Part shown: piece by piece, positions 44,410 to 52,416 of the stretch | Position numbering within the stretch: the stretch's first letter is position 1 | How the letters are laid out: every line of letters starts with the position of its first letter | Source of the DNA: an uncultured Clostridia bacterium | GTDB taxonomy: Bacteria > Bacillota > Clostridia > Christensenellales > Borkfalkiaceae | DNA: 59,455 bases | Assembly: GCA_944359365.1 (NCBI GenBank) | Contig: CALVST010000007.1 | Coordinates: forward strand, 1-59,455 | Direction of reading: 5' to 3' | The notes under the pieces: model-generated | The model's database searches: none | Seen by the model: only the letters and a program-made list of their open reading frames with translations | Told to the model about the DNA's origin: nothing | Translations under genes and position numbers: made by a program

Positions 44410-45696
44410 TTACGGTCGGCGAAGCGCCTTCGGATATTTGTTTTTCATGACGTTTCCGCCCGCCTTGCCAAGTCCCAAAGCAAAGCCCCGCCACGCGGCG
44501 GCGCACCAACCTTTATCGCAATTTGCAGGCACCTCTTCCCCGCGCAGGAATTTCGCCGCGCTTTCGTCGGAAAGCACGTTTACGTTGCAAAAATTATCCC
44601 TGCCTGCCGCAAGGGCAAGCGCGTGCGAAGGCTCGAACCTGCCGTTTACGGCCTCTCCGAGGCGTATGCCCGCGCGCAAGACCTTTAACCCTTCGAGGGA
44701 GAACAGCCCTTCGGGCACGAGATACAGCGCGTTGCCGAACATGAGCAGCTCCCCTTCGAGCGGGCGCTTGAAAAACTCTTTTTCGAACGCCCTCCACAGC
44801 GCCGCCGATTTTTTATCCGCCGCCGGGTTTTGCCTGCGCCGCAAAAAGCGCTCTTCCCCTTCCTCTTTTTCCTTTTTGAAGAGGGCGGCGAAGTGTCCCT
44901 CTCCGCGGACGCGGTGCGGCCAGAGCTTGTGCTCGCCCGTGAGGGTGAGCGCGCACTTTTTCGCAAGCCAAGCCGCGTTGATTTCGTCTTCCTCCTCCGA
45001 AAAGGTGCAGGTGGAATAGACGAGGCTTCCGCCCGGGCGCAGCATTTGCACGGCGCTTTGCAGGATCTTGCGCTGCCTGTCCGCACACATGCGGACGTTT
45101 TCTTCGCTCCATTCGGAAAGCGCGGCAGCCTCTTTTCGGAACATTCCCTCGCCCGAGCAGGGCGCATCCACGAGGACTTTATCGAAATAGCCTGCAAACC
45201 TTTCTTCCAACGACGCGGGATCGGCGCACAGCACTACGGCGTTGGAAACGCCCATGCGCTCGATATTTTCGGAAAGCACTGCCGCGCGCGCGGGCACCTT
45301 TTCGTTGAGCACGAGTATCCCCTTGCCCCGCATATCCGCCGCGAGCTGAAAACTTTTCCCGCCGGGCGCAGCGCAAAGGTCGAGAACGCGCTCGCCCGGG
45401 CTTGCGGCTAGCAGGGGCGCGGCGCACATGGCGCTCGGCTCCTGCACATAAAAAAGCCCCGCGGCAAAGGCGGCGCTTTTGCCCGGCTTTTCTTCCTTGA
45501 TATAAAAGCCGCCGGCAGCCCACGGCACGGCGCCGTCCGCGGGCAAAAATTCGCCTGCAAGAAATTCTTCGGGCGATATTTTCAGCGTGTTTATCCGCAT
45601 CCCCTTTACGGGCGGCAAATCCATACAGGCAAAATACTTATCCGCGTCGGGCAAGTCCCTTTTTATTCGGCTTACATACGCTTCGGGCAGGTTCAT
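44410..45696 (-). CDS. rsmF: rRNA m5C methyltransferase (RsmF/NOL1-NOP2-Sun)
   Basis: 428 residues. SAM-dependent cytosine-5 methylation of rRNA. VQEPSAMCAAPLLAASPGERVLDLCAAPGGKS binds SAM, VDAPCSGEGMFRKE carries one catalytic Cys (motif IV), and VYSTCTFSEEEDE the second (motif VI). The C-terminus has the RsmF_methylt-type domain and a PUA-like tail (GRFEPSHALALA). The start overlaps the exonuclease stop by four bases. Confidence 0.93.
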   Translation of the reverse strand: MNLPEAYVSRIKRDLPDADKYFACMDLPPVKGMRINTLKISPEEFLAGEFLPADGAVPWAAGGFYIKEEKPGKSAAFAAGLFYVQEPSAMCAAPLLAASPGERVLDLCAAPGGKSFQLAADMRGKGILVLNEKVPARAAVLSENIERMGVSNAVVLCADPASLEERFAGYFDKVLVDAPCSGEGMFRKEAAALSEWSEENVRMCADRQRKILQSAVQMLRPGGSLVYSTCTFSEEEDEINAAWLAKKCALTLTGEHKLWPHRVRGEGHFAALFKKEKEEGEERFLRRRQNPAADKKSAALWRAFEKEFFKRPLEGELLMFGNALYLVPEGLFSLEGLKVLRAGIRLGEAVNGRFEPSHALALAAGRDNFCNVNVLSDESAAKFLRGEEVPANCDKGWCAAAWRGFALGLGKAGGNVMKNKYPKALRRP

Positions 45697-46667
45697 TCTT
45701 GCTCCGCCCAGAGAAGGCGTTTGAATTCCGAAAGTTTGTATATTTCGTTTATGGCGCCCTCGTCGTACATTTTATGCGCAGCGTCGCGGCGGACGGAGTC
45801 GTCGGCATCGTCCTCCACGAACACGTTACAGCCGCCCAGCTTCATCGAATATCTGCCGCCGCGCGCGACGATCGCCTTTACGAGCCGCTTTGCAAGGGGC
45901 AGATCTTCTTCGATACTGCGGGAAAAACTGAACCGTCTGCCCTTGAACTCGCGCGACTGCGGCTTTTGGCGGTAACCGAACACGAAATTGTTGAATTTGG
46001 AACGCTTTTCCCCTTTTTCGCGCTTTGCCTTCGCCTTATCGCTCAAAAATTTCGCGCGCGCCTGCGACGAGCAGTTCCTGAACTGATAGTCAGCGATACT
46101 GCCGGGGCGCACGGAACATTTTTCCAGAAGTTCGGGCAAAGTGCACCGCTCCTTTTCGCACATCGCTTGGGCGATCTTCATGGTCGCATAAGCGTCGTCT
46201 GCGGCGCAGTGCGGGGTATACTCCACCTCAAAGATCTCCGTCAGCGCTTCCAAGCCCGCCTGACGGTCAAAGGTGTTCGTCATAGCCATATACAGCACCT
46301 GCGTATCCGCAAACTCGAAGGCAAAGGAAGGCAGTTTGTAGCGGCGCGTTTCGAGGCACAGATATTTGACGTCGTTGACGGCGGCGTGGCCGAACACGAG
46401 CTTGTTGTCCCCTTCCAATAATTTTTTTATCTGCGCATAAAAATGCGGGAACGGGGGATATTTTTTAAATTCCGCGTAATCGTAAGGGAGGACGATCCCG
46501 TCGCCCCCGCGGTCGGTTAAATGAAATTTGCCGTTGGGATTGATGAGGATATCCTCTTTTTTGATGATATTGAATTGTTCATCGCACACGCAATATCCGA
46601 ACACGCAAATTTTTGCCACGTTTTTATAGACGCAAGCGCATTCGATATCGAAAAAAACATACTCCAT
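45693..46667 (-). CDS. DnaQ-like 3'-5' exonuclease with C-terminal BRCT-like region
   Basis: 324 residues. The N-terminal exonuclease motif I is YVFFDIECACVY (DxE), motif II is FGHAAVNDVKYL, and motif III is CAADDAYATMKIA (DEDD-type). A basic linker (KAKAKREKGEKRSKFNNF) leads to a C-terminal 90 residues whose LAKRLVKAIVARGGRYSMKLGGCNVFVEDD resembles a BRCT repeat. It is coupled to rsmF by an ATGA overlap. Exact role, in repair or RNA processing, is unknown. Confidence 0.82.
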   Translation of the reverse strand: MEYVFFDIECACVYKNVAKICVFGYCVCDEQFNIIKKEDILINPNGKFHLTDRGGDGIVLPYDYAEFKKYPPFPHFYAQIKKLLEGDNKLVFGHAAVNDVKYLCLETRRYKLPSFAFEFADTQVLYMAMTNTFDRQAGLEALTEIFEVEYTPHCAADDAYATMKIAQAMCEKERCTLPELLEKCSVRPGSIADYQFRNCSSQARAKFLSDKAKAKREKGEKRSKFNNFVFGYRQKPQSREFKGRRFSFSRSIEEDLPLAKRLVKAIVARGGRYSMKLGGCNVFVEDDADDSVRRDAAHKMYDEGAINEIYKLSEFKRLLWAEQE

Positions 46668-46730: not shown

Positions 46731-46837
46731 GTTTTTTGCCCGCCCGCCCGAACCTCCCTTTACAAAAATTGCGCGGCGTTCTCATGAATTCCCCTTACAT
46801 TTTTCTGAAACGTATGTTAACAATTTGTATATATCGG

Positions 46838-46954
46838 ATAGGTTACAACGGCATTGGTGTACCCTTTCTATTCCTATTCGATAGAAGTTGTGACGCAGAC
46901 AATCGGGGTGTTACCTATGCGGGCGCATCCCAAAAGATGCGCCCTTATTTTTTT
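46838..46954 (+). ncRNA. Structured RNA or riboswitch-like leader with own terminator
   Basis: About 117 nt. P1 is ATAGGT (46838-46843) with ACCTAT (46913-46918). Inside are P2 ACAAC/GTTGT (46845-46849 with 46887-46891) and P3 TTCTAT/ATAGAA (46866-46871 with 46881-46886). ACCC (46861-46864) could pair with GGGT (46906-46909) as a pseudoknot. A 9-bp terminator (46921-46929 with 46936-46944, T-run to 46954) follows directly. ATGC-GGGC-GCAT (46917-46928) is an alternative hairpin that would use both the end of P1 and the terminator arm. A plausible promoter (CTGAAA-17-TATATA) predicts a start near P1. It lies 31 bp before the next gene. Confidence 0.6.
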
Positions 46955-46985
46955 GCGGCGGATTTGAATTAGGAAGGAGAGAATC

Positions 46986-47655
46986 ATGTACTACTATGTC
47001 AAAAACTCGTTGGATGAGAATGCAGTAAAAAAGCAATTTTTTCAAACGGTACTTTCAAGCGGAGATGCTGACAAAGGATTCCTCGAGCACATCAAAAACC
47101 CGGCAAATATACAAATTAAGACCTCCGTCATGTCCCATGCCGTTGCCGAAGTACAGTCTTTTGTTTATTTTTCATACAGCGATAAAAATTATTACACCTA
47201 TACAAGCGGTTATAACGCCCGTCTGCGCGGAGACACCGTTTATATCAACGAAGAAAGGAGCACGGGTTCCTATCGGTCGAACGAGTCGGACCACGCAGAC
47301 ATTACGAAAAAAATCGTATACAAATACGTTCGCGGCAATATCACCTACGCGGCAAACGATCTGACTTTTTCCTATACACGGAACGGCCCCGTTTGGGCAG
47401 CGCCCGTAACGACGCCACGCGCCTTGGACGAATACGGCGAATCCGAATTTATCAAAAGCTGTTGGAAGCAGACGAAATTTTCCGACCTCTCCTCCTGCGC
47501 GAAAGAGATAGCAAGAGCCGTGGAAAATTCTGATTACAAAAAAGTATACGACGACGAATTGAAGGCATACCGTTCTGCCCTGCAAGACAGCAACAGCGAC
47601 GCAAAGCGCATCAAAAAAAACAGGACTGCCCGCTCTCGGGCAGTCCTGTTTTTTT
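46986..47655 (+). CDS. Unknown protein gene without a stop codon before its terminator
   Basis: Open from ATG 46986 behind AGGAAGGAGAGAATC. The first 210 or so residues look genuine: MYYYVKNSLDENAVKKQFFQ, SHAVAEVQSFVYFSYSDKNY, DITKKIVYKYVRGNITYAAND, rich in Tyr and Ser with no signal peptide or membrane helix. The frame then runs through the terminator hairpin (from codon 212, KKNRTARSRAVLFF) and on into the antisense of the ferritin-like gene, stopping only at 48137. The natural C-terminus is therefore probably lost, or the message is nonstop. Unrecognised family; controlled by the structured leader upstream. Confidence 0.6.
47613..47655. terminator. Bidirectional intrinsic terminator
   Basis: Perfect 11-bp stem CAGGACTGCCC (47621-47631) with 47638-47648, eight A before and seven T after. 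Between the unknown plus-strand gene and the ferritin-like gene. Confidence 0.9.
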
Positions 47656-47672
47656 GCAAAACTCCTTGCCTT

Positions 47673-48920
47673 TTACGCGCCCTTGATGCGGGCAACGTCT
47701 GTATTATCCTTCTTTTCGTCTTTGAGCTCGCGTATGGGATGCGCCTTTTCTTCAAACCGGTAATCCCTGCCCGCCTTTTTGATGCTCTTTTCTATGACCA
47801 TATGGCTCGCCATCGTGTTTACGTTGCCCTGCACCTCTCTGTTGTAGGAGAAGAAACGATGCCTGTCGGGCAGTTTATCGACCTCTTCAAACGTTTCCGC
47901 ATTGCCCGAAAGGCGCACGCTTTTGAGCACTTCGCGCACATATTCCTTCTGCGGCGTGAACTTGATGAGTTCGGGGAATGTGCCGCCCTCGGGGAAGAGC
48001 TGCTGCCAGACCTTTCCGTCGTACTTTTCCAACAGCTCGCAGGCATAGCGCAGGTGCGAAAGCTCTTCTTCGAAATGCATGAGCCAGATATCTTTGACGC
48101 GCGCGTCTTTTTCGTCCTCGTAGCACGACCAATATAAATAGCATTCGGTATACTCGTGCATGACCATGCAATCGAATATGCTGACGGTGGGATCGGAAAG
48201 GCACCCGTACCCCGTAACGTGCTGCTCCTCGATCATTGCGATTTCGGAATACAGTTTTCTGCCAAGCTCTGTTTCGTGTAGGTTTGCGATGTTCAGATAA
48301 TAGTTCATCGTCTGTTGTTCCGCCGCCGTTATGATGCCCACGTTCAGCCTCGTTATGGGATCGTTGAGAAAATTATTGATATAAAAGCGCACGTCGTCGT
48401 AAGGGTGGCGGGGTTCGGAAACGGTGGGCCTTCCCGGCATGATCTCCGTATAACTGCCGACGAGCTTTTCCGCGTGCACGCCGCGCTCGAAGTTCAAAAG
48501 GTCTGCATAGCGGTACAGGTGATCGAAGTCCTCTAACAGCGCAAAATCCAGCTGATGCTTGACATATTCGTTCTTTTCCCTCTGCGCGAGTATCGCGGTA
48601 AGGTCTACGGCGAGCTGTTCGTAACCGATGGTGTGTTCGAGCGCTCTCTCGTTTCTCGGCTTTAAATTTGCGATACGCTTTTGCTGCTGCTGTTCGCCGC
48701 GGCGTATCATCGCCATGGCGCGGCGGACGTCGTTGTTGCAGCAGTGGCGGGAAAAGCGGTGGGTATTCCAGATCGCCTCAAATTCCGTGCCGTTCATCAG
48801 GATGATGCGCACGCGCGTATACGGATCCACCGTTTCTTTGTCATACGGCTTTACGTTGACGCTCTTCCAATTTTTGTAGATTTTTTCGATGGGTTTTGAT
48901 TTTTCCGAAAACGGATTCAT
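47673..48920 (-). CDS. Large ferritin-like (diiron) protein, unknown
   Basis: 415 residues. Helical protein with carboxylate/histidine motifs of a diiron centre: LYSEIAMIEEQHVTGYG (ExxH), MHEYTECYLYWSCYEDE, and MHFEEELSHLRYACELLEKY (ExxH). The N-terminal half contains a basic patch and a Gln run (RRGEQQQQKRIANLK) and a further helical pair (LDFALLEDFDHLYRYADLL). It is about 2.5 times a ferritin. Start is ATG 48918-48920 after AGGAGGCCTGTT. Single gene; oxidative or iron-linked function is inference from the motifs only. Confidence 0.75.
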   Translation of the reverse strand: MNPFSEKSKPIEKIYKNWKSVNVKPYDKETVDPYTRVRIILMNGTEFEAIWNTHRFSRHCCNNDVRRAMAMIRRGEQQQQKRIANLKPRNERALEHTIGYEQLAVDLTAILAQREKNEYVKHQLDFALLEDFDHLYRYADLLNFERGVHAEKLVGSYTEIMPGRPTVSEPRHPYDDVRFYINNFLNDPITRLNVGIITAAEQQTMNYYLNIANLHETELGRKLYSEIAMIEEQHVTGYGCLSDPTVSIFDCMVMHEYTECYLYWSCYEDEKDARVKDIWLMHFEEELSHLRYACELLEKYDGKVWQQLFPEGGTFPELIKFTPQKEYVREVLKSVRLSGNAETFEEVDKLPDRHRFFSYNREVQGNVNTMASHMVIEKSIKKAGRDYRFEEKAHPIRELKDEKKDNTDVARIKGA

Positions 48921-52341: not shown

Positions 52342-52416
52342 TGGAGCAGGAGACGGGAATCGAACCCGCGGGAACCAGCTTGGGAAGCTGGCGCCATACC
52401 ATTAGGCGACTCCTGC
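52342..52416 (-). tRNA. tRNA-Gly (anticodon TCC), CCA encoded
   Basis: Acceptor GCAGGAG/CTCCTGC, D arm GCC-TAATGGTAT-GGC, anticodon stem CCAGC/GCTGG with loop TTCCCAA (anticodon TCC), T arm GCGGG-TTCGATT-CCCGT, discriminator T and encoded CCA. It has a near-consensus promoter and its own terminator. Confidence 0.97.

Follow-up and report, generated by a model that had tools for sequence, protein, structure and literature searches.

Here, we describe a structured and probably cis-regulatory RNA, absent from Rfam, in the genome of an uncultured Clostridia bacterium (the window analysed is the whole 59,455-nucleotide stretch of contig CALVST010000007.1, assembly GCA_944359365.1). It is read as a cis-acting transcription attenuator of accessory surface genes that is off by default (probability about 0.8), in which base-pair swapping most likely decides whether the downstream gene, often one for a surface lipoprotein, is transcribed. 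The computed support consists of covarying helices, four specific pairings between neighbouring strands, a promoter and a terminator, position before genes, and lipobox enrichment among the downstream products. As far as sequence comparison reaches, the findings favour a new transcription attenuator family, possibly one of metabolite riboswitches.

Element and locus

Two divergent ORFs, one ending its gap-facing side at 46667 on the minus strand and one starting at 46986 on the plus strand, flank the 318-bp gap that holds the element. An initial annotation, made from the sequence alone, had placed a compact fold here, closed by an outer helix P1 of ATAGGT and ACCTAT and followed by a terminator 31 bp before the next gene. 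The divergent gap, the letters (ATAGGT at 46838-46843, ACCTAT at 46913-46918), the terminator (a 9-bp stem, 46921-46929 with 46936-46944, and a T tract directly 3') and the distance (the next ATG lies 31 bases beyond 46954, the end of the T tract) were all found in the sequence. A structured RNA is borne out by covariation; its extent had to be redrawn to 46811-46956, starting about 27 nt further 5'. The helix named P1 is not the conserved one: in close relatives of the same loop subtype ATAGG forms the inner part of the 5' strand of P2, and within the window its partner is CCTAT (46873-46877), while ACCTAT, taken for the 3' strand of P1, falls in strand C of the linker. The parts of the window copy and its flanking genes are as follows.

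45693-46667, minus strand: ORF for an RNase_T exonuclease (Pfam)
46811-46956, plus strand: whole element, from covariance models R1 (E 4.7e-23) and R2 (E 5.4e-16), the window copy being part of the training alignments of both
46813-46826, plus strand: 5' strand of P1, weak here (-5.7 kcal/mol); P1 covaries in relatives
46827-46831, plus strand: 5' internal bulge with the conserved unpaired AUA of the family
46832-46842, plus strand: 5' strand of P2, 11 of 11 positions paired (covariation)
46844-46849, plus strand: strand A, 5' side of the apical hairpin, by homology (alignment columns 60-70); A:B is weak here
46850-46866, plus strand: apical loop and strand B, whose partner is A or C (duplex energies)
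46867-46872, plus strand: pyrimidine-rich 3' bulge
46873-46883, plus strand: 3' strand of P2
46885-46897, plus strand: 3' strand of P1
46904-46920, plus strand: strand C (linker), forming a pseudoknot with B or an antiterminator with D (energies, family test)
46921-46935, plus strand: strand D, loop and 5' arm of the terminator
46936-46944, plus strand: strand E, 3' arm of the terminator
46945-46954, plus strand: T tract of the intrinsic terminator
46986-48137, plus strand: presumed regulated gene, without a family in a Pfam scan

In single-sequence folding, z was -3.16 for the full 118 nt (none of 200 shuffles equally good), -5.03 for just the terminator hairpin, and -0.94 for the element minus its terminator (38 of 200 shuffles equally good). 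Single-sequence folding is little proof beyond the terminator; the rest is established by comparison of relatives.

Relatives and distribution

A BLAST query of 166 bases hit 14 of 61 genomes (own included), none of them outside the genus, and revealed a further copy in the element's own genome. Model R1 gave 68 matches, spread over 27 of the 40 genomes of the genus and including its training members; in the order it matched 22 of 200 genomes. With R2, members were found in 137 of 201 genomes of the family (up to 13 copies per genome), in 85 of 391 genomes of the class and in 2 of 398 genomes of a phylum sample, one of them the element's own and the other from the same class. At E<=1e-15 the own genome holds four copies: the window copy, a tandem pair on contig C75 and one on C32. 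A pattern scan of genome contigs returned 35 stretches, all 35 also matched by the covariance model, with titles naming uncultured Clostridia (26), uncultured Firmicutes (3), Clostridiales (2), and Candidatus Gallimonas merdigallinarum, Saccharofermentans, Christensenella and Ruminococcus flavefaciens (one each). BLAST of phages and of plasmids, with one element each, found no match; a pattern scan of IMG/VR returned a single contig (L111), also matched by the covariance model. The L111 member (1177-1330) scores 64.0 bits, equal to that of a Clostridiales MAG (L105), and L111 may be prophage or host DNA.

Weak opposite-strand overlaps (nine and three) and two duplicate rows were dropped from the searches, and the 144 loci pooled gave 136 distinct members; the pool represents the better-scoring loci returned by the searches and is not a random sample. 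Nine of the 136 are the first of a tandem. The tandem in the own genome (L020, C75:3620-3971) consists of two members separated by about 55 nt, both of which have a promoter and a terminator of their own, and precedes a small lipoprotein-like ORF. Three loop subtypes, a tandem pair among them, occur in one genome (G012; contigs C9, C14 and C15, loci L175, L176 and L177).

Fold and covariation

Placed in one orientation, the relatives share a layout that opens with an extended -10 promoter and continues with the long outer helix P1, which begins at the presumed transcription start; an asymmetric bulge leads to P2 and the apical hairpin, and linker and terminator follow. In a sequence alignment of 16 relatives (A1), 21 of 39 pairs show changes on both sides, a number that 0 of 500 shuffles reach, and the signal collapses when the partner is slid by 1-3 columns; none of the six A:B pairs shows a two-sided change there. 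In an alignment of the 68 model matches (A2), which being model-based leans towards its own structure, all 39 pairs (P1, P2, A:B and D:E) have changed on both sides. Conservation and covariation of the helices in relatives, as the initial annotation would predict, are thus found in both alignments.

Several unpaired or weakly constrained positions are also conserved. ACAA occurs in the 5' strand of P1 in 101 of 136 members, and in these ACAA-anchored members the AUA of the 5' bulge is kept as A in 96, U in 86 and A in 79 of 101. Pyrimidines make up 86% of the 3' bulge that follows B, and G 3%, as counted in the 34 of 42 representatives that allow it to be delimited. By covariation and the AUA bulge, a conserved structured domain lies upstream of the expression platform, the layout of riboswitch-type elements. 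Nine of the 13 copies in one genome (G709) vary freely in the inner P2 strand (mean identity 0.29) with P2 pairing kept, and have identities of 0.84 in loop plus B and 0.64 in C. Since loop plus B and C are kept beyond the needs of pairing, this hints that something may read these strands.

A relay of five strands

Loop subtypes differ in sequence, and by eye B matches C and C matches D. Counting the pseudoknot and antiterminator on A2 was dropped because the registers differ between subtypes, with many cells unpaired; duplex energies of a member's own strands were instead compared, alignment-free, with those of strands swapped between members. The comparisons omitted members whose P1 fitted poorly (2 of 136 in the test of 134 members, 3 of 136 in that of 42); the window copy was one of these and was tested apart from the pooled members. 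Among the 134 members, own strands beat the swapped mean in 127 for B:C and 132 for C:D. Among 42 non-redundant members, neighbouring strands beat swaps in 37 (A:B), 42 (B:C), 41 (C:D) and 42 (D:E), whereas non-neighbours stayed at background (A:D 24, A:C 19, B:D 23, C:E 17 and A:E 16 of 42), with B:E marginally above it (27 of 42, p 0.018). Because the neighbour pairings are specific, strands A to E make up a chain: every inner strand has a possible partner on either side and can hold only one of them at once.

Both hallmarks of an attenuator are found: an intrinsic terminator before the gene (D:E in 42 of 42; T tracts in the sequences read) and a conserved pairing that excludes it (C:D in 41 of 42 and in 132 of 134). 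Summed over the two pairings of each state, mean energies are -32.2 kcal/mol for B:C with D:E and -24.1 kcal/mol for A:B with C:D, the former being lower in 38 of 42 members; A:B with D:E, also terminated, is intermediate (-28.3 kcal/mol). These sums exclude loop and pseudoknot costs. As to the earlier proposals for this part of the RNA, the ACCC/GGGT pseudoknot proves to be the core of the longer B:C pairing, and the terminator is supported by D:E in all 42 members and by the stem and T tract in the window. The idea of a switch with a mutually exclusive alternative also stands, while the exact hairpin proposed for it, ATGC-GGGC-GCAT, is not supported: it has 4 bp and is present in the letters, and the supported antiterminator is C:D, pairing 46904-46916 with 46921-46932.

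The window copy shows the family features P2, B:C, C:D and D:E, B:C only moderately. Its P2 is perfect (11 bp), and its duplexes have energies of -15.8 (B:C), -15.3 (C:D) and -18.1 kcal/mol (D:E). For B:C, 10.7% of swaps and 2.2% of shuffles are as good; for C:D, 2.4% of swaps, a moderate stand-out. P1, weakened by divergence of its 5' strand, is equalled by 2.6% of shuffles, A:B does not rise above chance (62.6% of shuffles equally good), and a consensus promoter was not found before the window P1, the best score (8 of 13) lying at other positions. Given the A:B, B:C and P1 values and the lack of a consensus promoter, the window copy is a divergent, possibly decaying member, presumably one that still works.

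Promoter and downstream genes

A promoter score of at least 9 of 13 was reached by 117 of 136 members, compared with 4.1% of shuffles; the spacer is 17 nt in 104 of these 117, and the -10 element ends 3-7 nt before P1. A Shine-Dalgarno (SD) sequence with an ATG lies within -12 to 60 nt of the element's end in 78 of the 123 non-tandem members with enough sequence, whereas the rate is 7.2% at random positions (n = 4,920) and the divergent side yields 2 of 121; the other 45 have no SD-preceded ATG within 60 nt. Among first SD-preceded ORFs (<=130 nt away, >=45 aa), 45 of 89 carry a lipobox, as called by our own simple pattern; the background, made up of the remaining ORFs of these loci (>=100 aa), gave 11 of 196. 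Domain scans (Pfam and defence genes) covered 87 of 108 downstream ORFs. Pfam assigned 60 families to these 87 proteins, 51 of them once, led by LRR_5 of the BspA type (18), DUF6273 (7) and Zn_Ribbon_1 (6), and the defence-gene scan returned 17 families, each in a single protein. The downstream genes are thus of many kinds, and lean strongly towards surface functions. Three members with a GGTAAA loop (L061, L063 and L064, from three genomes) lie just before or overlap ORFs that start with (M/L)IITFCGH.

Proposed mechanism and alternatives

In the proposed mechanism, the polymerase would start at the dedicated promoter just 5' of P1 and first produce the long hairpin of P1, P2 and A:B. As long as A holds B, strand C, emerging later, would be available to D, which forms the 5' arm of the terminator, and read-through into the gene would follow (ON). 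Once released, B would pair with C, forming a pseudoknot with P1/P2, D would pair with E, and transcription would stop before the gene (OFF). Judging by the summed duplex energies, which are lower for OFF, the default is probably termination; the accessory genes, many of them for surface lipoproteins, would be induced by a signal that stabilises A:B or prevents B:C. We infer which state is ON, which is the default, and the existence and nature of the signal. That all this amounts to a previously unnamed switch class of Clostridia, with up to 13 copies per genome, a five-strand relay, surface lipoprotein targets and one shared signal (ligand, protein or RNA), is a broader claim whose chances we put somewhat below even. 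If the attenuator reading is right, more than 200 sampled Clostridia genomes would use one RNA device, mostly before genes for lipoproteins or other surface proteins, surface variation would have a new input in its signal, and the A-E relay would lend itself well to studies of co-transcriptional strand exchange.

What the signal might be divides the attenuator reading. Recognition of the hairpin by a protein or a trans-acting RNA (an antiterminator protein, an RNA chaperone or a small RNA) is a plausible, if tentative, answer: it would fit conservation beyond pairing needs (ACAA in P1, loop plus B within one genome), the pyrimidine-rich, G-poor bulge and the heterogeneous regulon. Some of the same observations would also suit a strict riboswitch, in which a small molecule or ion bound by the core of P1, P2, A:B and pseudoknot sets B:C against A:B; the layout recalls pseudoknot riboswitches with terminators, the unpaired AUA and the pyrimidine bulge are conserved, tandem copies occur (9 of 136), and the nine G709 copies keep loop plus B and C while P2 varies. 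The conserved unpaired bases are few for a metabolite pocket, however, and the downstream genes share no common pathway (51 of the 60 Pfam families occur once among 87 proteins), and we regard a strict riboswitch as possible, with chances below even.

Two further explanations would remove the link to the downstream gene. A free-standing, trans-acting small RNA would have just such a promoter and terminator of its own as are predicted here, also for each tandem copy, and would account for the 45 of 123 members without a close SD-preceded ATG, the genes being mere neighbours; yet an SD with an ATG within 60 nt in 78 of 123 members, about ninefold over random positions, and the lipobox enrichment argue against it, and a specific C:D antiterminator is unexpected for a pure small RNA, making this explanation unlikely. 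Repetitive palindromic DNA (REP-like, or a mobile element remnant) with no regulatory role would explain as many as 13 copies per genome, but P2 differs among copies of one genome with its pairing kept, and the element is oriented with the predicted promoter, terminator and gene; we consider it highly improbable. The preferred reading is still that of an attenuator acting in cis.

Relation to known RNAs

At gathering score, Rfam 15 reported only a tRNA (52345-52416) in the whole window and nothing over the element, so the initial failure to match a known RNA holds. On the element, E<=10 gave four hits, all below threshold: suhB/mmgR (RF00519) as the best (20.2 bits against a gathering score of 41), and P10, SOX2OT and Atu_C9, all rejected. 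The suhB/mmgR RNA has a GC-rich terminator hairpin, as does the window element, and differs in that its long helix corresponds to the terminator of the window element. Over 20 diverse loci (E<=1), hits over the element were all sub-threshold and all in one locus (L054): MicX (24.4 of 75 bits) and MicC (32.3 of 90) over it, and sraA (38.5 of 56) at its edge. A further 20 class-level and other loci gave tRNAs only at gathering score. No Rfam match to T-box, c-di-GMP-I or -II, TPP, ZTP, fluoride or guanidine RNAs was found in the window, the element or the 40 loci. A large family that current Rfam models do not detect implies that many such leaders are unannotated.

ZTP, fluoride and c-di-GMP-II riboswitches have a 5' leader in which a pseudoknot strand is shared with the antiterminator or terminator, and a terminator just before the gene. 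The present family resembles them in its leader, shared pseudoknot strand and intrinsic terminator just 5' of the gene, and differs in the long P1/P2 rod at the predicted start, in a strand A that competes for B, and in the genes that follow. In trp-type leaders and plasmid copy-control attenuators, a chain of mutually exclusive neighbouring pairings ends in a terminator, as it does here; unlike them, the family has one strand more (A-E), and no leader peptide or antisense gene was recognised on unsystematic inspection.

Titles and the starts of abstracts, few of them from subscription journals or preprints, contained no description of such an RNA. A large set of predicted structured RNAs of the human microbiome, filtered against Rfam 14.3 (Fremin and Bhatt, 2021; PMC8040213), does not describe the motif in the text passages compared; its candidate set may include the motif unnamed, so the motif may have been predicted earlier.

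Additional observations

A tmRNA gene (Rfam; L039:118-491) lies about 1 kb from a family member. In the window, a terminator-like hairpin (47620-47656) lies within ORF 46986-48137 on the plus strand, with no stop codon before it, and past the hairpin this ORF is antisense to a convergent ORF; it may be damaged. In favour of the attenuator reading, one of 40 same-genus genomes (G028) has a weak homologue of the window gene (20% identity, E 1.2e-4), and its start codon lies 20 nt behind another member of the RNA family.
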